Below are positions 2,680-12,520 of a DNA stretch of 64,000 bases, piece by piece. Below the pieces are notes generated by a model that was given only the letters and a program-made list of their open reading frames with translations, ran no database searches and was not told the origin of the DNA. Source of the stretch: Nostoc sp. 'Lobaria pulmonaria (5183) cyanobiont' (GTDB taxonomy: Bacteria; Cyanobacteriota; Cyanobacteriia; Cyanobacteriales; Nostocaceae); the NCBI RefSeq assembly GCF_002949795.1, contig NZ_CP026692.1, positions 3,022,545-3,086,544 on the forward strand, in the 5' to 3' direction. Numbering within the stretch: the first letter of the stretch is position 1; every line of letters begins with the position of its first letter. Made by a program: the position numbers and the translations under genes.

Positions 2680-3330
2680 ATGGTTCAATTCGATGAACAG
2701 CTACGCCGCTTAGTTACAGAAGCCTGTGGACACCAACCTGGAAGCCCTCAGCGTCAGAAGCTGCTCACGCAAATTATTCGCTTGACAGCAAGTAGACTCT
2801 GGAGGGAACATACTCCCTACTATCAAGACGCACTACAACAAACTTGGTTGTATTTCTGTCGCAATGTTTGTGAAGGTTTGACAGGCCAAACCTACGATCC
2901 CAATTATGGCAGTGTGATCACTTGGCTGAATGCTTACCTAAAACGGAGACTACAAGACTTTTACCTTAACCAGAACCGAGAACAAGCCACAACAGTCCCT
3001 CTGAGAATTCGTCAGTCTACATTCGGTGGAATAAGTGAAACTATCGATCCTGTAGATAACCTACCGGCTAGCCCCCAAGCACCTCCGATTTTGGAAGACT
3101 TGGAGATATGGACGAAGACAGATTCGGATGGGGAACTGCGCGGTACTTACATTAAAGGACGTCCAGATGTGAATTGTCAGGTGTTAATTCTCAAACGCTT
3201 ACCCCCAGAAGTTAGCTGGAAAGATTTATCTGAGGAATTTGGGTTGTCAATTCCGACGTTAAGCAGTTTTTATCAACGCCAATGTTTACCGCGTTTGCGT
3301 AAGTTTGCAGAATTGGAGGGATTATTATGA
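2680..3330 (+). CDS. Sigma-70-like (ECF-type) factor linked to CHAT genes
   Basis: A 216-residue protein with a two-part sigma layout. Residues about 45-95 contain DALQQTWLYFCRNV and a YDP-x(4)-VITWLNAYLKRRLQD stretch, which is region 2-like (the usual F/YDP..F.tWL..i..n...D pattern). Residues about 165-210 contain LILKRLPPEVSWKDLSEEF and a helix-turn-helix, region 4-like. A variable acidic linker lies between. Such proteins probably direct RNA polymerase to a small set of promoters. It sits upstream of the CHAT/DUF1822/CHASE2 genes on the same strand, although a 445-base gap separates it from the next gene, so co-transcription is uncertain. No anti-sigma gene is visible next to it. Confidence 0.7.
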   Translation: MVQFDEQLRRLVTEACGHQPGSPQRQKLLTQIIRLTASRLWREHTPYYQDALQQTWLYFCRNVCEGLTGQTYDPNYGSVITWLNAYLKRRLQDFYLNQNREQATTVPLRIRQSTFGGISETIDPVDNLPASPQAPPILEDLEIWTKTDSDGELRGTYIKGRPDVNCQVLILKRLPPEVSWKDLSEEFGLSIPTLSSFYQRQCLPRLRKFAELEGLL

Positions 3331-3774
3331 TCGGTGCTGATAGCGAATAGCTAGGGTTGAGCCAGTGCTGAGTCAGAAGTAGTACTGATGAATCTTCCCA
3401 CTTTCAGCTGAGGTATTCACTCCTCGGAATTAATTTTATGCCTAAGCCTAGTACCGCAAGGCGGAAGTCAAAAGTCAAAAGTCAAAAGTCAAAAGTCTTA
3501 TGGAATGTGCTTTTTATGGATATTAAATGGTTGCTCTATTTACGCCGTGGTGTACTAGTTAATTTTACTTTTTACTCAGCACTATTTCGGTGGGTTTTTG
3601 TTTAAGGTTTGCGCTCGCTTTTTAACTATACTTTGCTAATCAAGTTTCACAGCGATCGCAATAAATAAGAAGATTGTGAAAGCTCAAAGATTGGTGAGGG
3701 ATGGGAATGGTAACATTACCCTGTTAGCCTAATAGTTGATCCTATGTGTTTCTGGTTATCACCTACCTCTCGTC
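3331..3774. other. Intergenic region upstream of the TPR-CHAT gene
   Basis: It contains an anchor plus heptamer repeat tract (3450-3497), one HIP1-like GCGATCGC site near 3653 and AT-rich stretches. It presumably carries the promoter of the CHAT gene. No convincing open frame or RNA gene is seen. Confidence 0.5.
3450..3497. repeat. Short tandem heptamer repeat with GC-rich anchor
   Basis: The anchor AGTACCGCAAGGCG (3450-3463) is followed by about 4.5 copies of the heptamer AGTCAAA (3466-3497). Heptamer arrays of this kind (STRR sequences) are known from heterocystous cyanobacteria. The same anchor precedes a different heptamer array at 27395. Confidence 0.85.
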
Positions 3775-3780
3775 ATGCTT

Positions 3781-6504
3781 ATGGCTAAAACAACTAGGAT
3801 TTTTGGTGCGAATTCTCTAAAGTTTAAAAGCAGGGGTCGGGAAACCGCAAGGACGCGCTGGCTCACCCCCCTAGCTCACTTTTTACGTTTGCCTTTGTAC
3901 TTCTTGGTCGCTTTGCTATGCATTGTCGGTTCACCAGTGCTAGCAAAAGTTCCTAACTCAATCAATTCTTCATCCCAACTGCCAATAAACAGTCTGACAT
4001 CGCTGGCTGTACCCACTGATGCCGCCTCACTCCTACAGCAGGGCAAAGTTTTATACAGTACTGGCAAATTTGCCAAAGCTGTAGAAGTGTTACAACAGGC
4101 TGTCCAAATATATAAGCAGCAAGGGGAGAACCTCACACTAGCAGTGACACTGAGTAATCTTTCCCTAGCTTACCAGCAACTCGGTACATGGAGTCAGGCG
4201 CAGCAGGCAATTACAGAAAGCTTAAATTTACTCCAAGGACTGGATAAAAACCAAAATCTGCCAATATTTGCCCAATCACTAGATATTCAAGGTCGTCTGC
4301 AATTGGCAATGGGACAGTCTGAGGCGGCTTTGGCAACTTGGCAGCAGACAGAAGAAATTTACAAACAAGCAGATGATAAAAGTGGTGTGGTGCGATCGCT
4401 AATCAATCAAGCACAGGCGTGGCGCACCCAAGGATTTTACCCGCGAGCGTTCAAAACACTCGATCGAATAAGTCAGACGTTAAAATCTCAACCCGATTCT
4501 ATAGAAAAGACAGTGAGTTTGCGATCGCTCGGTGATGCCCTTTTGGTATTGGGCGATTTGAAAAAGTCACGCAAAGCATTAGAAGAAAGTCTGATAATTG
4601 CTCGAAATCTGCAATCAAGGGCTGATATTGGGGCTAGTCTGTTCAGCTTGGGAAATAATGCCCGTAAACAAAACCAAAAGGAACAGGCGATCGCCTATTA
4701 TCAACAAACAGTCGCAGCATCTCCCTCACCTTTAACAAAAGTTCAAGCACAACTTAATCACCTGGGCCTACTGATTGAAGATAAAGAATGGGCAAAGGTT
4801 CAAACTCTTTTGCCGTCGATTGAGTCTTACCTCGACCAACTCCCTCTCAGCCGTGCGAGTATTTATGCTCAGGTTAACTTTTCACAAAGTTTGGCAAAAG
4901 TCAAGAGCGGTGTATTACAAGCGTCCAGTCAGAGTTTTTACTCAGGATTCAGTACAAAAGACTCAGCAAAGTTACTTGCTAGTGCCATCCAGCAATCCCG
5001 CAGTTTAGGGGACAAGCGGGCAGAGGCTTATGCTCTGAAGAGTTTAGGCGGCTTGTACGAAGAAACCAGACAGTGGTCAGAAGCGCAAGACTTGACCAGG
5101 CAAGGATTAGCTTTGGCACAGAGTAGCAATGCACCAGAAATTACCTATAGCTTGGAGTGGCAGTTAGGTAGATTGCTTTGGGCACAAAAAAATATTAATG
5201 GTGCGATCGCGGCTTATGATGCTGCTGTAGACACTCTTGAGTCTCTCCGCAGAGATTTAGTAGTAAATAAAGATGTCGTGAACCAGGATGTGCAATTTGA
5301 CTTCCGGGACAGTGTAGAACCCGTCTACCGCCAGTCAGTAGAGTTACTGCTGCAATCTCAAACAGGAAAACCAAATGAAAAAATATTGGAGAAAGCACGC
5401 CAGCGGATTGAAGCACTCCAACTAGCAGAATTAGACGACTTCTTTCAGGAAGCTTGTCTGCAAGGTCAGAGAGTAGCCCTCGATCGAGTAGTAGACAAAG
5501 ATAATACCAAGGCTGCCATCCTTTATCCAATTATTCTTCGTGACGAACTCCAGGTAATTGTCAAAATTCCTAAACAACCTCTGCAAAGCTACAGTACCAA
5601 AATTTCCCAAAAAGAAGTAGAGAAACTCTTAATAGAACTGCGAAGAAATCTTGTCGATCCAACTGCTACTAAGATCGTCCAAACCCAATCGCAAGAAGTT
5701 TACAACTGGCTGCTTAAACCCATTGAGTCACAATTGCAAAAAAGTGGTGTTGATACGTTAGTGTTCGTCTTAGATGGGCCATTACGCAATTTACCAATGG
5801 CAGCTCTCTACGATGGTAAACAATACTTGGTAGAGAAATATGCGATCGCCCTGAGCGTCGGTCTACAACTCCTCGACCCAAAACCGCTGGTAAAACAGCA
5901 GCTGAGAGCACTAACCGCAGGACTGACTCAGCCGCCGCCAGGATTTTCCAAGTTTGCACCATTGCTAGCGATCAAATCTGAATTTGACGGTATTGCTAAA
6001 GCAGGAGTTTCGACAACCAGCCTACTTGATGGAGATTTTAAGAAAAAGAATTTGGAAAGTGAAATTGGTGGTGCTTCATTCAACATAGTGCATTTGGCAA
6101 CCCACGGTCAGTTTAGTTCCCGCCTTGAAGAGACTTTTATTTTAGATTTCGATGGTCAGATCAATGTCAAAGATTTTGATACTCTCTTCCGCAGTCAGGG
6201 TAAAACCGTAGTAGAATTATTAGTCTTAAGTGCTTGCCAGACAGCAACAGGAGACAACCGTGCAGCACTCGGTCTAGCAGGAGCAGCTGTCCGAGCTGGG
6301 GCACGTAGTACCATAGCTTCCCTGTGGCAAATTGATGATGAATCAACAGCAATGTTTGTTAGTGCCTTCTATCGAGAACTCAAGAGTGGCAAAATCACCA
6401 AAGCCGAAGCAGTCCACCGTGCCCAGCTAAAACTACTGAAACATCCCAACTACAGATCGCCAAGCTTTTGGTCTGCCTATGTATTGATTGGTAATTGGTT
6501 GTGA
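3781..6504 (+). CDS. Exported TPR-CHAT protein (caspase-like peptidase domain)
   Basis: A protein of about 907 residues. A basic N-terminus precedes a hydrophobic segment (residues 37-54) ending SPVLA-K, which is a signal peptide or signal anchor, so the protein probably acts outside the cytoplasmic membrane. Residues about 80-500 form tetratricopeptide repeats, for example the AVTLSNLSLAYQQLGTWSQA unit. The C-terminal third is a CHAT domain with the His-Cys dyad of clan CD peptidases: HLATHGQF (His775) and VLSACQTATG (Cys819). ATG codons at 3775 and 3781 and a TTG at 3736 are all possible starts. I prefer 3781 for the normal signal-like N-terminus, without a clear ribosome site. CHAT proteins are caspase relatives with TPR partner-binding regions. 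The substrate is unknown. It lies in an island with DUF1822, CHAT-CHASE2 and DUF928 genes. Confidence 0.85.
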   Translation: MAKTTRIFGANSLKFKSRGRETARTRWLTPLAHFLRLPLYFLVALLCIVGSPVLAKVPNSINSSSQLPINSLTSLAVPTDAASLLQQGKVLYSTGKFAKAVEVLQQAVQIYKQQGENLTLAVTLSNLSLAYQQLGTWSQAQQAITESLNLLQGLDKNQNLPIFAQSLDIQGRLQLAMGQSEAALATWQQTEEIYKQADDKSGVVRSLINQAQAWRTQGFYPRAFKTLDRISQTLKSQPDSIEKTVSLRSLGDALLVLGDLKKSRKALEESLIIARNLQSRADIGASLFSLGNNARKQNQKEQAIAYYQQTVAASPSPLTKVQAQLNHLGLLIEDKEWAKVQTLLPSIESYLDQLPLSRASIYAQVNFSQSLAKVKSGVLQASSQSFYSGFSTKDSAKLLASAIQQSRSLGDKRAEAYALKSLGGLYEETRQWSEAQDLTRQGLALAQSSNAPEITYSLEWQLGRLLWAQKNINGAIAAYDAAVDTLESLRRDLVVNKDVVNQDVQFDFRDSVEPVYRQSVELLLQSQTGKPNEKILEKARQRIEALQLAELDDFFQEACLQGQRVALDRVVDKDNTKAAILYPIILRDELQVIVKIPKQPLQSYSTKISQKEVEKLLIELRRNLVDPTATKIVQTQSQEVYNWLLKPIESQLQKSGVDTLVFVLDGPLRNLPMAALYDGKQYLVEKYAIALSVGLQLLDPKPLVKQQLRALTAGLTQPPPGFSKFAPLLAIKSEFDGIAKAGVSTTSLLDGDFKKKNLESEIGGASFNIVHLATHGQFSSRLEETFILDFDGQINVKDFDTLFRSQGKTVVELLVLSACQTATGDNRAALGLAGAAVRAGARSTIASLWQIDDESTAMFVSAFYRELKSGKITKAEAVHRAQLKLLKHPNYRSPSFWSAYVLIGNWL

Positions 6505-6797
6505 TTTGGCGAGCCAATCTTCCTAATTGATCGCTCAAATTGTACGCTCAAAATTTGCCAAACTATCTGCTAGTTGATAAGCCGCTTTTAGCAGCTTGAA
6601 GCTATCTTCATAGAAGTATAAATACTCAAAAGCTCTATCTCCCAGATCATTTGAATATACAATATTTTAATTTGATGGGATATTTTTACCTAATCCCCAG
6701 TCCCCAATTCTCTTTTTCCAGTATTCAATTTTGTGGCATAAATTTATTGAATGCGGGTGATATATACATAGCAGCATTGAACCCTATAAATTGACTT

Positions 6798-7766
6798 ATG
6801 AATAACTCCACCTATCAGCTAGATGATTTCGCTTTAACATTGCCGATTTCCCAAACAGCTCGCATAACTGCCCAGCAATTTGCTAACCAGCAGCCAAATC
6901 TTGAAAAAGCAGAGCAAGTCCGGCTGAATACTTTAGCTGTATGGGTGGTGAATGACTACTTGCAGATGATGAATATTCCTACCGATCTTCAAGCTAGTGA
7001 CAGTTGGAACCCGATCATGCGCCTTTGTGGGGATGTAGCTGATTTAGAATTGCCCTCAATTGGCCGTCTGGAGTGTCGCCCCGTGCCTTTGCATCAGCAG
7101 ATATGTTCTATTCCTCCAGAAACTTGGCAAGAACGGGTGGGTTATTTAATAGTTCAATTTGATGAATCGCTCGAAGAAGCAAGGCTGCTTGGTTTTATCC
7201 CTAGTGTGGCAACTGAAACACTGCCTTTAGCGCAACTGCAACCATTGGAAGCGTTTATTGACCACATCTGGCAACTGCGCCAATCCCCAGTTAATTCATT
7301 AGTGAATTTGAGTCAGTGGTTTGCTGGTATATTTGAGACTGGCTGGGAGACTATTGAATCGCTGTGGAACGTGCCAGAACTCAGGCCAACTTATGCCTTT
7401 CGCAGTATTGAAACTTTGGAATTAGATACTCTCAAACAACCAGAATCAATTACTAAACGGGCAAAAGTGATTGATTTAGGTATCCAAATTCTCAACCAAC
7501 CTGTGATGTTGATTGTGGAAATCAGCCCCGAAAAAGATCAACAAACTAGTATTCATCTCCAATTGCACGCCACTGGAAATCAAATCTACTTACCACCAGG
7601 AGTTCATCTCACTGTTATAGATAGTTCAGGAGCAATATTTCTCGACGCTCAATCTAGAAAATTAGACAACTATATTCAGTTGCAGTTTCGTGGTGAACCT
7701 ACAGAGCAATTTAGCGTTAGGGTAGCCTTGGATAATACCAGTATTACCGAATATTTCCGAATTTGA
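6798..7766 (+). CDS. DUF1822 family protein
   Basis: A 322-residue soluble protein. The N-terminal half, with LPISQTARITAQQFANQQ, LNTLAVWVVNDYLQMM and WNP..RL..DVADLELP, is the conserved DUF1822 block found almost only in cyanobacteria. The C-terminal part, rich in beta-strand patterns (LQLHATGNQIYLPPGVHLTV, then FRGEPTEQFSVRVAL), looks like a separate all-beta domain. No enzymatic motif is visible. DUF1822 genes commonly sit beside CHAT-CHASE2 and sigma-like genes, as here, which suggests a regulatory or adaptor role. That role is inference. The ATG at 6798 gives the expected family N-terminus. Confidence 0.8.
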   Translation: MNNSTYQLDDFALTLPISQTARITAQQFANQQPNLEKAEQVRLNTLAVWVVNDYLQMMNIPTDLQASDSWNPIMRLCGDVADLELPSIGRLECRPVPLHQQICSIPPETWQERVGYLIVQFDESLEEARLLGFIPSVATETLPLAQLQPLEAFIDHIWQLRQSPVNSLVNLSQWFAGIFETGWETIESLWNVPELRPTYAFRSIETLELDTLKQPESITKRAKVIDLGIQILNQPVMLIVEISPEKDQQTSIHLQLHATGNQIYLPPGVHLTVIDSSGAIFLDAQSRKLDNYIQLQFRGEPTEQFSVRVALDNTSITEYFRI

Positions 7767-7942
7767 AATATGTAGCTATCTTCCTTCTTTGTTGGTAATT
7801 TATTAAGTGATAATTCATTAATTAAAAATTAAAAATCCAAGCCAGCTTTTGGGGATTTTGAAAAAAATCTGTAGACGCTTGTGAAGCTTGTGATCGGACA
7901 TTAGAACAGGGCACGATATTGCATGGGGAGATAGCGACGGTT

Positions 7943-10309
7943 ATGGGTAAATTAGTGGCGATCAAATTTGGAGAGGGTAGTTTTGAGCAGGGGTTTGCTG
8001 TCACCCTCCAAATAGGTGAAGAACACGAGCGTGCTACAACCGAAATCACCGGGAGGCTACCTTCATTCCCGGAAATGCCGCTCTATTATAGTCATTGGCA
8101 GTCTAGTTATCGGCAGATAGGCAATCGTTATCGCCTCCATGCTGACCAAATGCAGGTGACGAATGTATCGATGGTTCAAGACTGCGAAAACGCTTCTCAT
8201 ATTTTGCGGGCACGCTTTAATACCTGGCTGCGAGCAGAGGAGTTTCGCCCTTTGAGGGAAAAATGGTTAGAAAGATTATCGTCCAGCGACGAAGTAAGGG
8301 TGATTTTGCAAACAGAAAATAGCCAATTGCAGCTATTACCCTGGCATCTGTGGGACTTGTTAGAACGCTATCCCAAAGCTGAAATTGCCCTTTCTTCACC
8401 ATCCTACGATCGCATTCACAAGCCACGCACTCTTAATCAATTAGTCAATATTTTGGCAATTGTGGGCAATAGTAAGGGGATTGACACCCAAGCCGATCAA
8501 GCTTTATTGCAACAGTGTAGTAACGCAGAGGTGAGCTTTTTGGTAGAACCACAACGTAAGGACTTGACTGAGCATCTCTGGGGAAAAAACTGGGATATTC
8601 TCTTCTTTGCTGGACACAGTTCCAGTCAGAAAAATGGAGAAAGCGGACGAATTTACCTAAATAGAACTGATAGTCTTACCATTGGCGAGTTAAAGTACGC
8701 TCTCAAAAAAGCTATTGAGAATGGTTTGCAATTAGCTATATTCAACTCCTGTGATGGATTGGGTTTGGCGCGAGAATTAGCTGATTTGCAAATTCCTCAA
8801 ATGATTGTCATGCGCGAACCCGTCCCAGATCAGGTTGCGAAGGAGTTTTTAAAGTATTTTCTCCAAGGCTTTGCCGGTGGCGAGTCTTTATATCAAGCGG
8901 TACGCCAAGCGCGAGAACGCTTGCAAGGACTTGAGGATAGATTTCCTTGTGCAACTTGGCTACCAGTAATTTGCCAAAATCCGGCGCAGATACCACCGAC
9001 TTGGGATGAATTAAGGTCTGCAAAATCTGAGGATGAAGATAAAGCAAATTTACCTTTGTCTAACAGACGCAGATTTAAAAGAACTTTGTTATCCAGCTTG
9101 GCAGTTACAGTCTTGGTTTGTGGCGTGAGATTGCTGGGATTGCTAGAAAATCCAGAGATTCAAGCCTTTGACCTAATGATGCGATCGCGTCCCGCAGAAG
9201 GACTCGATCCCCGACTGTTAATAATCACAATTGACGATGAGGATCTGGCGACTCAAAGACAAAATGGCGAGTCCTTGATCGGAGCTTCTATTTCCGAAAA
9301 ATCTCTGAATAAACTCTTAGCAAAACTGAATCAATACCAACCCCGTGCGATCGGCTTGGATATCTACCGTGATTTTAAAGCCACACAACCAGATTTAATT
9401 ACTCGTCTCCAGCAAACTCAAAACTTGGTTGGCGTATGTAAGGGGAGCGATGGCACAGAAAAAATTAAAGGTACTGAGCCACCGCCAGAAATCCCCCCAG
9501 GAAATCTGGGATTCAGTGACTTTATTTACGATCGCGATGGAGTTATTCGTCGACATCTTCTGTTCATGAATCAGGAGACGACATCATTGTGTTCTGCTCC
9601 ATATTCCTTCAGTTTACAGCTAGCATCCCTTTATTTGCGCCCTTTAGGAGTTCAAACAAAGTTCACCCGTGAAGGAAATTTGCAGTTGGGTAAAACTATT
9701 TTTCCGAATCTGAAGTCTCGTACTAATGGCTATCAAAATATTGATGCTAATGGCGGTCAAATCTTACTCAACTATCGTTCTTCAAAAGAAATAGCCGAAC
9801 AGGTAAAGCTAACGCAATTTTTATCTAGTCCCATTAACCCCAACGCCATCAAAGACCGGATTGTTCTGATTGGTGTAACTGCAAAGGGGGATTCTCCAGA
9901 CACCTGGCCTACACCTTATGGCATTCCTTTAGATGAGCAAATGCCAGGAGTACTGGTACAAGCTCACATGGTCAGCCAGATCCTTGGTGCAGTCCAAGAT
10001 GGGCGGCCGTTGCTGCGAGCTTGGTCATGGTGGGCAGAGGTCGCCTGGATTTGGGGCTGGTCTTTGATTGGGGGAGTCCTGGTTTGGCGCAAGCTTTCCT
10101 TACCCTGGTTGGCATTGGCAATCGGTGTTACTTCTAGCGTTTTGTATGTAGTTTGCTTGGGTCTGTTAATTTCAGGTGCTTGGGTACCTTTTGTACCGTC
10201 GGCTTTATCGCTTGTAGCTATGGCGAGTTTGATGTCAATTTATAATCATTCAAAAATAAAAGTCCGGGCGGGGAATCGGGAGCTAAAGGAGATAAAGCAG
10301 AATAACTAA
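7943..10309 (+). CDS. CHAT-CHASE2 membrane receptor
   Basis: About 788 residues. The N-terminal cytoplasmic part carries a CHAT domain with both catalytic residues in place: FFAGHSSS (His225) and FNSCDG (Cys270). A transmembrane helix follows at about 378-398. A CHASE2 sensor domain comes next, recognisable by FDLMMRSRP, LIITIDDEDL and RAIGLDIYRDF, and should lie outside the membrane. Three C-terminal helices (about 695-770) return to the cytoplasm. The layout is that of a receptor whose external sensor could control an internal caspase-like domain. The ATG at 7943 has GGGGAG about 14 bases upstream; an in-frame TTG lies at 7919. It starts 176 bases after DUF1822 and is followed by the broken DUF928 gene after 48 bases. 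Confidence 0.85.
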   Translation: MGKLVAIKFGEGSFEQGFAVTLQIGEEHERATTEITGRLPSFPEMPLYYSHWQSSYRQIGNRYRLHADQMQVTNVSMVQDCENASHILRARFNTWLRAEEFRPLREKWLERLSSSDEVRVILQTENSQLQLLPWHLWDLLERYPKAEIALSSPSYDRIHKPRTLNQLVNILAIVGNSKGIDTQADQALLQQCSNAEVSFLVEPQRKDLTEHLWGKNWDILFFAGHSSSQKNGESGRIYLNRTDSLTIGELKYALKKAIENGLQLAIFNSCDGLGLARELADLQIPQMIVMREPVPDQVAKEFLKYFLQGFAGGESLYQAVRQARERLQGLEDRFPCATWLPVICQNPAQIPPTWDELRSAKSEDEDKANLPLSNRRRFKRTLLSSLAVTVLVCGVRLLGLLENPEIQAFDLMMRSRPAEGLDPRLLIITIDDEDLATQRQNGESLIGASISEKSLNKLLAKLNQYQPRAIGLDIYRDFKATQPDLITRLQQTQNLVGVCKGSDGTEKIKGTEPPPEIPPGNLGFSDFIYDRDGVIRRHLLFMNQETTSLCSAPYSFSLQLASLYLRPLGVQTKFTREGNLQLGKTIFPNLKSRTNGYQNIDANGGQILLNYRSSKEIAEQVKLTQFLSSPINPNAIKDRIVLIGVTAKGDSPDTWPTPYGIPLDEQMPGVLVQAHMVSQILGAVQDGRPLLRAWSWWAEVAWIWGWSLIGGVLVWRKLSLPWLALAIGVTSSVLYVVCLGLLISGAWVPFVPSALSLVAMASLMSIYNHSKIKVRAGNRELKEIKQNN

Positions 10310-10357
10310 TGTCTAATGTCCAATCTAAAATCTAAAATCCTATGAGGTCAGGTTTCT

Positions 10358-10656
10358 ATGAATTTAAATTCACAACTGATAAAACTGTTTTTAGTAGTAG
10401 CTTTTAGTTGTACAAGTTTATTAGTTAGCCTGACTCCAATACTGGCAAAACCAACTCCTAATCGCTCTGACGCTAAAACAACCCTTGCTCAAGCCACAAC
10501 TTTTACTCAACCTCCAATTCCACCTGGCTCACCTCCTGGAGGTCGTGTTCGTGGTGGAGCAAAGCGCGGGGGGCCTAGTGGATGTCCTTCACCTAAAATT
10601 GACTTGACTGCTTTAGTACCCTTTACTCAGGAAGCTAACTCTGTAATTAATGTCTG
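10358..10656 (+). pseudogene. DUF928 gene, 5' fragment (interrupted by IS)
   Basis: The frame encodes a signal peptide (basic start, hydrophobic core, cleavage around PILAK) and then the DUF928 hallmark: a Gly/Arg-rich stretch (GGRVRGGAKRGGPSGC) and LTALVP. It reads normally to VINV at 10654 and then runs into the insertion sequence, where it stops after a further 17 codons of IS-derived sequence. Removing the IS and one 4-bp target copy joins it in frame to 12016-12520 and gives a 267-residue protein. DUF928 proteins are exported cyanobacterial proteins of unknown role, often beside CHAT genes. Confidence 0.85.
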
Positions 10657-12011
10657 CTCATATCTTGCACCTGGAAATAGTAATGTCAATTCCATGACTA
10701 AGTGCTAAGGGCCGAAGCCGTTCAATGTCTAGTAGCAATAAAGACAAGACTAAATGAGGTAAAAAAGTAGATAGTGCAAGGAAAGCAGCTTGACCCCAGT
10801 CTAAAGAATCAGGGAAACAGGATGAAAGATACGTCCAATATGCTAATAAATAGGCAGTAATAGACAAGACTAACCAACGATAAATTCCTAAAAGAGTACC
10901 TTGTCCAAATCTATCTAAACCAAAGCGATATTTAGCAGTTTTAAACCAACCTTCAATTTTCCAACGGCGTTTACCCCACCAGGAAATAGTACTGGCTTTA
11001 AGAGGTTGTGTAGAGATAACATATCTTTTAACAAACTGACCATTATCGCGTTTGAAGTAATACCAAGAAAGAGTAACAGGGAAATCTAATCCAACAAGTC
11101 GGACTTGTTGTCCTCGACGATGTAGAAGTTTAACTGGATAACCATTAACCAACTTGCGATTACAACCAATACCAATAACAGCATGATATTTTAGTTTCCG
11201 AAGATTGTTGATAAAATCCTTAGTACCAAAAGCAGTATCAGCGAGAATTTTTACCCGAAATCGTTTGGTTAAATCTTTGGGTAAATGACGTACCATTCGT
11301 AATGCTATTTGAGACGGACTAGCCGTCCCTTTACCTCTCCAGACACGAAAATTCCAGGGTATACGCCATTGTCCAACTACCAAATATAAAACTACTATAT
11401 GCAAGCCTCGTTTCCCGTTGTAAACGGTTATTAGATTTTTAAATGCTTTAAATTGACCACATTTCTCTAAAGTTGTCAGGTCAATTATTACTTGTAGAAA
11501 CGCTTTTCTTCCCAATGGACAATGACTGTTAACTTGCTCAATTGCCTGTTGGCGAAGATGGCGAATTAGCTTGCGAGTAGGCCATTTATAGGTATTCAAA
11601 AATCTACTTAAAGCACTTTCAGATTTGGATTTACTGTAGTGTGGCAAAGGTTTTCCGTCTGCTGCTAGAAACAGCCCTAACATTGCTTCCAAGTTGCCTC
11701 GTTGATAACGGCTAGGCATCAATGCCAGAATCGTATACATTAGGGTATGGGCGTGGGCAAGAATGGTTTCCATATTTCTTGCTGTTATTTATGTTATCTA
11801 CGCCCTTTTCTCTCATTTTTTACGAACATATAAAAATATCTTTATGCAGATGACATTATTCCCATCTTTGTATATGTCATTTGTATATATTTTGATACTA
11901 AATGTAGTTTATTATACTAATGCAAAACGTAGAAGCTCAATTTTTAGATGTTACTTTTATTTTCTTGTTATTGACTAATACTGAGAGTTTTTATCAGGTG
12001 CAAGATATGAG
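10657..12011 (-). mobile_element. IS4/IS701-like insertion sequence, 1355 bp, complete
   Basis: Both ends carry a 17-bp inverted repeat, CTCATATCTTGCACCTG at 10657-10673 and its exact complement at 11995-12011. The flanking target duplication is TCTG (10653-10656 and 12012-12015). One transposase gene on the minus strand nearly fills the element. About 220 AT-rich bases upstream of that gene hold its promoter. The element looks intact and recent, because the host gene on both sides is otherwise undamaged. Confidence 0.92.
10658..11773 (-). CDS. DDE transposase of the IS4/IS701 superfamily
   Basis: A 371-residue transposase. DDE-type motifs are seen: IDLTTLEKCG (first Asp), ILADTAFG (second Asp) and the C-terminal RRWKIEGWFKTAK, which fits the R-x3-E-x6-K signature of IS4-like enzymes. 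A KYRFGLDRF and LTAYLLA-like helical tail follows. The first residue of the IS4 Y-x2-R motif is not Tyr here. The frame ends inside the left terminal repeat. It has no frameshift and both ends of the element are intact, so it may be active. Confidence 0.9.
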   Translation of the reverse strand: METILAHAHTLMYTILALMPSRYQRGNLEAMLGLFLAADGKPLPHYSKSKSESALSRFLNTYKWPTRKLIRHLRQQAIEQVNSHCPLGRKAFLQVIIDLTTLEKCGQFKAFKNLITVYNGKRGLHIVVLYLVVGQWRIPWNFRVWRGKGTASPSQIALRMVRHLPKDLTKRFRVKILADTAFGTKDFINNLRKLKYHAVIGIGCNRKLVNGYPVKLLHRRGQQVRLVGLDFPVTLSWYYFKRDNGQFVKRYVISTQPLKASTISWWGKRRWKIEGWFKTAKYRFGLDRFGQGTLLGIYRWLVLSITAYLLAYWTYLSSCFPDSLDWGQAAFLALSTFLPHLVLSLLLLDIERLRPLALSHGIDITISRCKI

Positions 12012-12520
12012 TCTGGGCACAAACAACAGTAGAACATCCAAGTTGGTTTTTCTATGTGCCATATACTAAAGATTCGCCATATACAGTTGAATTTGTGCTG
12101 CAATATCTAGACGATAACGAGGTATACAAAAAAGCGATCGCTCTACCGGATAAGCCCGGAATCGTCCGCGTTTCTTTGCCTAGCACTGCTCCCACTTTAG
12201 CAGTAGGTCAACAATACCGCTGGTTTTTCACCATTAACTGTGACAAGCAACAGAATGCTCCCCTAACTTTTGTTGAAGGGGTAATAAAACGAGTTAACCT
12301 CAGTCAAGCAACAGTCAAAGAACTAGAAACGGCAGAACCTCTAAAGCGCTATGCTATCTATGCCCAAAATGGGATATGGTACGAGGCGCTGACGACGTTG
12401 GCTGAACTACGTCAAAAAAATCCTCAAGATGCAGCACAGAAAGCAGAGTGGCGAAATTTATTAGGTAGCATCCGTTTAGATGATGTTGCCGAAGAACCCA
12501 TTCTTCCAGGAACACCTTAA
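12012..12520 (+). pseudogene. DUF928 gene, 3' fragment
   Basis: Starting right after the IS, the frame reads VWAQTTVEHPSWFFYVPYT, the central DUF928 motif (usually a xxPTFWFYVPY form), and continues to the natural stop with the family C-terminus (RYAIYAQNGIWYEALTTLAEL). The region from the ATG at 12056 alone would give 154 residues lacking the signal peptide, so it is unlikely to reach its normal place even if translated. The reconstruction across the IS is in frame without any base loss. Confidence 0.85.

Follow-up and report, generated by a model that had tools for sequence, protein, structure and literature searches.

Which partner, outside the cell, serves a CHASE2 sensor that is joined to a caspase? 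The question is raised by a 64,000-nucleotide stretch of DNA (hereafter the window; contig NZ_CP026692.1, positions 3,022,545 to 3,086,544) from the 7.34-Mb genome of Nostoc sp. 'Lobaria pulmonaria (5183) cyanobiont', where an island of genes encodes a sigma factor, a DUF1822 protein, DUF928 and two CHAT proteins, one of which carries CHASE2. The papers cited here treat CHASE2 as an outside sensor, for which their available text names neither a ligand nor a partner, and none was found in the accessible open-licence literature of PubMed Central (PMC). EACC2 systems, in the available part of Kaur et al. 2021 (eLife, PMC8195603), combine a constant alpha+beta domain, a caspase and a variable C-terminus, CHASE2 being one option for the latter. 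We favour the reading that the island is the CHASE2 subtype of these caspase-sigma systems with an exported sensor module added to it, DUF928 being the partner of CHASE2 and the receptor driving a caspase encoded beside a sigma factor. This reading is based on the linkage of the genes, on conserved catalytic residues, on N-termini of export type, on the association of DUF928 with CHASE2 receptors of unrelated output, on covariation and on predicted folds. The island comprises the following features (aa, amino acids; ORF, open reading frame).

2680..3330, plus strand: divergent ECF-like (extracytoplasmic function) sigma factor, 216 aa, assigned through the sigma matches of its relatives
3736..6504, plus strand: exported TPR-CHAT protein, predicted to be caspase-like, 922 aa from TTG (Pfam CHAT, 1.8e-57; Pfam TPR; hydrophobic N-terminus)
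6798..7766, plus strand: DUF1822 protein, 322 aa (Pfam, 1.4e-87), export-type N-terminus absent
7919..10309, plus strand: receptor with EACC2-like N-domain, CHAT, transmembrane segment, CHASE2 and transmembrane segment (Pfam CHASE2, 2.9e-67; CHAT, 5.6e-17)
10358..10656, plus strand: 5' part of the DUF928 gene, with signal peptide, corresponding to the start of DUF928 in locus L144
10657..12011, no strand assigned: IS701-like insertion sequence, 1355 bp, with 17-bp inverted ends and TCTG duplication
10658..11773, minus strand: transposase ORF of the insertion sequence (Pfam DDE_Tnp_1, 1.1e-12; NCBIfam IS701, 2.2e-18)
12012..12520, plus strand: 3' part of the DUF928 gene (ORF 12056-12520), without signal peptide (Pfam DUF928, 2.9e-51)

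DUF928 accompanies the CHASE2 sensor

EACC genes were compared according to their C-termini, which are CHASE2 in 50 and other or fragmentary in 42 of 92 genes. Eight genes at contig ends were excluded, leaving 84 (the first set), and DUF928 was counted within two genes downstream. It follows 35 of the 47 genes with a CHASE2 C-terminus (18 genera) and none of the 37 with other C-termini (19 genera), for which the Fisher p, ignoring kinship, is about 1e-13. In the 15 genomes that hold both kinds of EACC gene, DUF928 is found only at the CHASE2 kind in 11 and at neither in 4, and the reverse was never seen. The count scores as non-CHASE2 without DUF928 a locus where CHASE2 is a separate fragment and DUF928 lies further on (L056, G000:C1:5903128-5922128); this third island copy of the window genome is decayed, with a TAG within DUF1822 and with EACC-CHAT and CHASE2 as separate ORFs. 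At another locus (L133), the EACC-CHAT gene has CHASE2 and DUF928 as opposite-strand neighbours. A second set of 80 loci was selected for resemblance to the window; it has genomes in common with the first set and is not independent of it. Seven of these loci end at the receptor gene, and in the only non-CHASE2 row that has DUF928 (L215) the gene is split, the next ORF encoding CHASE2.

The link extends beyond EACC genes. In 12 near-complete genomes (1-10 contigs), CHASE2 lies within 5 kb of 41 of the 60 DUF928 genes, about 1 being expected (pieces and short partial matches were excluded, which left 60 of 61 rows for DUF928 and 92 of 99 for CHASE2). For 31 of these 41 genes, no DUF1822 is nearby among the matches listed; 20 such loci were fetched, and 18 are without an EACC gene, the other two being of EACC type (L237, L239). 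According to Pfam, the outputs of ten partner receptors are histidine kinases (three), cyclases (three), a protein kinase and AAA_35 (one each), with none recognized in two. Since the linkage persists without EACC and with other outputs, it is independent of EACC2: DUF928 is tied to CHASE2 rather than to this particular island.

DUF928 also tends to sit at the end of the receptor gene that encodes CHASE2, and it covaries with CHASE2. When CHASE2 occupies the C-terminal half of the receptor, DUF928 lies downstream in 97 of 97 cases (95 of EACC type), and when it occupies the N-terminal half, DUF928 lies upstream in 12 of 16. Across 78 loci, the distance-matrix correlation between DUF928 and CHASE2 (0.93) is above those of CHASE2 with the N-domain (0.88) and with CHAT (0.87) of the same polypeptide. 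The conserved co-occurrence on which a preliminary description of this DNA had staked its proposal is strongly borne out by the neighbourhood counts. At a separate locus (L236, genome G042, 5424-10272), a protein kinase-CHASE2-DUF928 set adjoins an NB-ARC ATPase gene.

A WD40-CHASE2-DUF928 cluster of Nostoc punctiforme is reported in the available part of PMC5587647, as present in no other of the 7 species surveyed. It shares with the island CHASE2 and DUF928 genes close by, but its five listed genes include neither a caspase nor a sigma factor. Apart from this one neighbourhood, no general link of DUF928 to CHASE2, or to the protein MtxA considered below, was found in the accessible open-licence PMC literature. 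The likely exported partner that accompanies the sensor here has apparently not been described previously.

The predicted fold of DUF928 resembles MtxA

DUF928 is predicted to have a signal peptide, an immunoglobulin-like (Ig-like) sandwich and TPR-like helices, and the best structural match of the predicted fold is MtxA (PDB 4z29), at 12% identity. In the available part of PMC4439547, MtxA of Magnetospirillum, studied for magnetotaxis, is an exported Ig-TPR protein with two TPRs, and a CHASE2-cyclase gene follows mtxA. On its model, DUF928 would have the signal peptide, Ig-like and TPR fold and linked CHASE2 gene of an MtxA-like exported CHASE2 partner, whereas no similarity in sequence was detected and DUF928 is not named in PMC4439547.

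We see an even chance that DUF928 of cyanobacteria and MtxA of magnetotactic bacteria belong to a single class of exported CHASE2 co-receptors with an Ig-TPR fold, and that the DUF928-plus-CHASE2 stretch is a mobile sensor cassette that serves unrelated outputs (caspase-sigma, histidine kinase, cyclase, protein kinase), in many cases accompanied by exported TPR-CHAT and two-partner secretion. CHASE2 and DUF928 are both present in 8 of 9 cyanobacterial plasmid regions (five from the receptor search, four from the DUF928 search). One of these, a plasmid of Picosynechococcus sp. PCC 7003, encodes compactly and on a single strand a hypothetical protein, DUF1822, CHASE2, DUF928 and CHAT in this order. 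On plasmid p_2 of Sinorhizobium meliloti (L249), the gene of a membrane cyclase that partially matches CHASE2-cyclase comes right after that of a large TonB-dependent receptor, which may be another kind of outside partner.

TPR-CHAT and two-partner secretion

Close relatives of the exported TPR-CHAT protein have DUF928 within 5 kb in 22 of 48 cases (0.56 expected) and CHASE2 in 20 of 48; for more distant CHAT matches the figures are 2 and 1 of 30, respectively (78 rows, without the weaker ones and without second fragments of a single gene). In the first set, TPR-CHAT lies within four genes at 24 of 47 CHASE2-type and 3 of 37 other EACC loci.

An alternative explanation, compatible with the reading that we favour, is a two-partner secretion (TPS) module, in which CHASE2-DUF928 would sense the state of a secreted filamentous-haemagglutinin-like protein and TPR-CHAT would process that protein. 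TPS genes lie within 10 kb of 33 of 55 TPR-CHAT genes (null 2.8) and 22 of 60 DUF928 genes (null 1.6), and ShlB is near TPR-CHAT in 10 of 55 cases (null 0.5); these counts rest on 55 rows for TPR-CHAT, 86 of 89 for TPS and 35 of 55 for POTRA_2, from which the larger Omp85-like ORFs were removed by hand. TpsA/TpsB genes are also present at the loci of some relatives, and the explanation is favoured by a plasmid of Anabaena cylindrica and by a conjugative plasmid of Nostoc sp. UHCC 0302 that carries, on one strand, DUF1822, CHASE2, DUF928, an S-layer protein, ShlB and CHAT in this order. However, 38 of the 60 DUF928 genes are without a TPS gene within 10 kb, and the island itself has no TPS genes, the nearest TPS lying 153 kb and the nearest ShlB 182 kb away. 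We regard this explanation as possible, if somewhat doubtful.

The sigma factor, DUF1822 and the caspase match EACC2

The window sigma-like protein, named ECF-like in the preliminary description, has no Pfam or NCBIfam match, nor have two rescanned relatives, although its family is sigma-like: Sigma70_r4_2 is matched by 4 of 25 relatives, and the best solved structure for the family profile is ECF SigK (4nqw, E 0.0055). DUF1822 loci were sampled as 140 regions, fetched in order of score from 150 of the more than 150 places, a sample that leans to strong matches (one fetched region, L061, gave no DUF1822 call). A sigma-like gene stands immediately upstream in 125 of the 141 unique DUF1822 genes, belonging to the window's family in 51 and to a longer family in 74. 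Members of the latter are mostly 380-630 aa long, some with two region-4 matches, and occur with or without EACC (e.g. L017, L020, L024); all five that were scanned match sigma region 4 at E<=0.01, three of them exceeding the Pfam cut-off. In the window TPR-CHAT intervenes, and it is likewise directly upstream of DUF1822 at four other loci. EACC-CHAT is the next gene downstream in 81 of the 141; in 53 neither EACC nor TPR-CHAT is, and one further locus lies at a contig end. DUF1822 tracks the N-domain of the receptor (partial correlation 0.52, against 0.11 for CHASE2). In 291 genomes drawn from the phylum, DUF1822 is matched in 187 (many weakly), DUF928 in 81 and CHASE2 in 255. In one family of the phylum, many genomes of small size (about 1.5-2.5 Mb) have a single weak DUF1822 match each (E about 1e-4 to 1e-17).

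According to the available text of PMC8195603, an ECF sigma factor and DUF1822 are present at most EACC2 loci free of TRADD-N, and caspase-driven signalling is proposed for these systems. The island likewise combines an N-terminal alpha+beta domain, a His/Cys caspase and a variable C-terminus, here CHASE2, with an ECF-like sigma factor and DUF1822 nearby, as in the TRADD-N-independent form. Judged by architecture as that text describes it, the predicted cytoplasmic core (sigma factor, DUF1822 and N-domain-CHAT caspase) is of the EACC2 type already described. The system had been proposed as undescribed; this stands for the sensor half, which was not found in the accessible open-licence PMC literature, and not for the core. 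DUF928 has 0 occurrences in the main text of PMC8195603, whose available part describes no exported TPR-CHAT or TPS partner either. The paper, in that part, labels DUF1822 a TPR protein, whereas the model of the window protein shows no TPR helices, being an alpha/beta N-part with a C-terminal Ig-like sandwich (mean predicted local distance difference test score, pLDDT, 82.8; predicted template modelling score, pTM, 0.53).

Instead of regulating the sigma factor, DUF1822 could serve as a scaffold or sensor, the sigma factor and the caspase acting in separate pathways at a shared locus. The protein is without a recognized overall fold, and the 53 loci without EACC or TPR-CHAT next downstream, plus the one at a contig end, fit such a role; the regular presence of a sigma-like gene of one of the two families directly upstream speaks against it, and we consider it unlikely. 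Less likely still is a plain EACC2 conflict (immunity or suicide) system, in which the variable C-terminus detects invaders or the effects they have, the caspase self-activates, with the sigma factor or cell death as the next step, and DUF928 and TPR-CHAT are passengers: PMC8195603 groups EACC2 among such systems in its available text and related genes on conjugative plasmids are consistent with an accessory function, but the DUF928-CHASE2 link is independent of EACC2, and PADLOC gave no specific match, its two results, a TPR model and a weak and partial similarity to BovA, both falling within TPR-CHAT.

The His-Cys pair proposed for both CHAT domains was confirmed as H225/C270 in the receptor, numbered from the likely start (ATG 7943), and as H790/C834 in TPR-CHAT from TTG 3736, equivalent to H775/C819 from an ATG 15 codons downstream. 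An alignment of 36 EACC-CHAT relatives shows H and C in all 36 without exception, and the N-domain is conserved too. Short GH and NSC motifs are present in 118 of 118 full-length CHASE2-type receptor relatives, and two TPR-CHAT motif patterns match 58 and 57 of 65 TPR-CHAT proteins. By a simple hydropathy rule, hydrophobic N-termini occur in 61 of 65 TPR-CHAT and 115 of 128 DUF928 proteins and in just 2 of 118 receptors (these and the motif counts pool locus sets that overlap in part). Hydrophobic segments at 388-412 and 726-769 flank CHASE2 in the receptor. The N-termini fit the predicted topology of the preliminary description, a cytoplasmic CHAT under an outward CHASE2 and a second, exported CHAT. 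A further cyanobacterial CHAT protein is HetF, a putative protease required for heterocyst development, for which the available part of PMC8406250 does not mention CHASE2; identity of the window protein with HetF was rejected (26.8 bits, against an NCBIfam HetF cut-off of 1200).

An insertion sequence splits DUF928 in this strain

The preliminary description reported five genes on one strand. Genes and domains were confirmed, but the 1,355-bp element at 10657-12011 had been missed, and DUF928 is not one gene here. The element has perfect 17-bp inverted ends and TCTG duplicated on either side; the best NCBIfam match of its transposase is IS701, at 66.7 bits, below the model cut-off of 150. The genome holds six full-length copies including that of the island, the other five being 100% identical as rounded. 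The signal peptide that had been ascribed to the DUF928 protein belongs to a 116-aa 5' piece, whose reading frame continues into the insertion as far as 10708 and which alone has no Pfam match, although it matches the beginning of the whole DUF928 in L144 (12560-13360). The Pfam-matching 154-aa piece has no signal peptide and covers profile positions 43-184 of 184, so that the full domain is not found in a single exported protein. In Nostoc sp. NMS9 (L144), the same five genes occur in the same order with DUF928 intact.

The other four genes are all intact and under purifying selection, with ratios of non-synonymous to synonymous substitution (dN/dS) of 0.11-0.24 relative to two relatives, the DUF928 pieces giving 0.25-0.31 in the same comparison. 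Because its DUF928 gene is broken, we predict that the receptor of this strain either is uncoupled or relies on another DUF928 encoded in the genome, where five further matches exist. Before the island, at 1889-2317, a small ORF of 142 aa is lipoprotein-like by eye and has a weak sub-threshold DUF4363 match; an ORF also 142 aa long lies upstream of the sigma gene in L144.

Proposed mechanism

Several observations weigh against the reading that we favour. DUF928 is missing within two genes downstream of 12 of the 47 CHASE2-type EACC genes; one of these is the window itself, owing to the insertion, DUF928 is upstream in three (L007, L059, L070) and further downstream in two (L141, L143), and no DUF928 is in view at the remaining ones. 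In the near-complete genomes, CHASE2 is missing from the 5 kb around 19 of the 60 DUF928 genes, and 53 of the 92 CHASE2 genes lack DUF928; 4 of the 16 N-half receptors are exceptions to the side rule. DUF928 and CHASE2 codons are adjacent in the DNA, and shared inheritance could inflate their correlation, for which the permutation test ignores kinship. DUF1822 does not track CHAT (partial 0.15, where CHASE2 given CHAT has 0.39), and structure comparison gave it no clear fold match. The DUF928 profile has no sequence-level match to MtxA 4z29 at E<=10. Finally, TPR-CHAT is near 16 of 63 CHASE2-type and 1 of 10 other loci of the second set, no clear difference. At one CHASE2-type exception (L126), a trypsin-like protease gene occupies the place of DUF928.

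For the CHASE2 subtype of EACC2 with its exported module, we infer the steps of CHASE2 binding, cleavage and sigma release as follows. DUF928 would act outside the cytoplasmic membrane as the partner of CHASE2, probably as a co-receptor or ligand carrier. TPR-CHAT would be a second, less constant outside partner, which may process DUF928 or, where present, the TPS exoprotein. Binding would alter CHASE2, and through the membrane the signal would reach the EACC2-CHAT caspase. DUF1822, regularly encoded next to the sigma factor, may hold or deliver that factor, and cleavage of DUF1822 or of the caspase by itself would then allow the sigma factor to activate its genes.

With an exported partner linked to CHASE2, and a solved look-alike encoded beside CHASE2 in other bacteria, the question of the CHASE2 partner becomes directly testable. 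If the proposal is true, DUF928 would gain a role, and bacterial caspase-sigma systems would gain an input from outside the cell.

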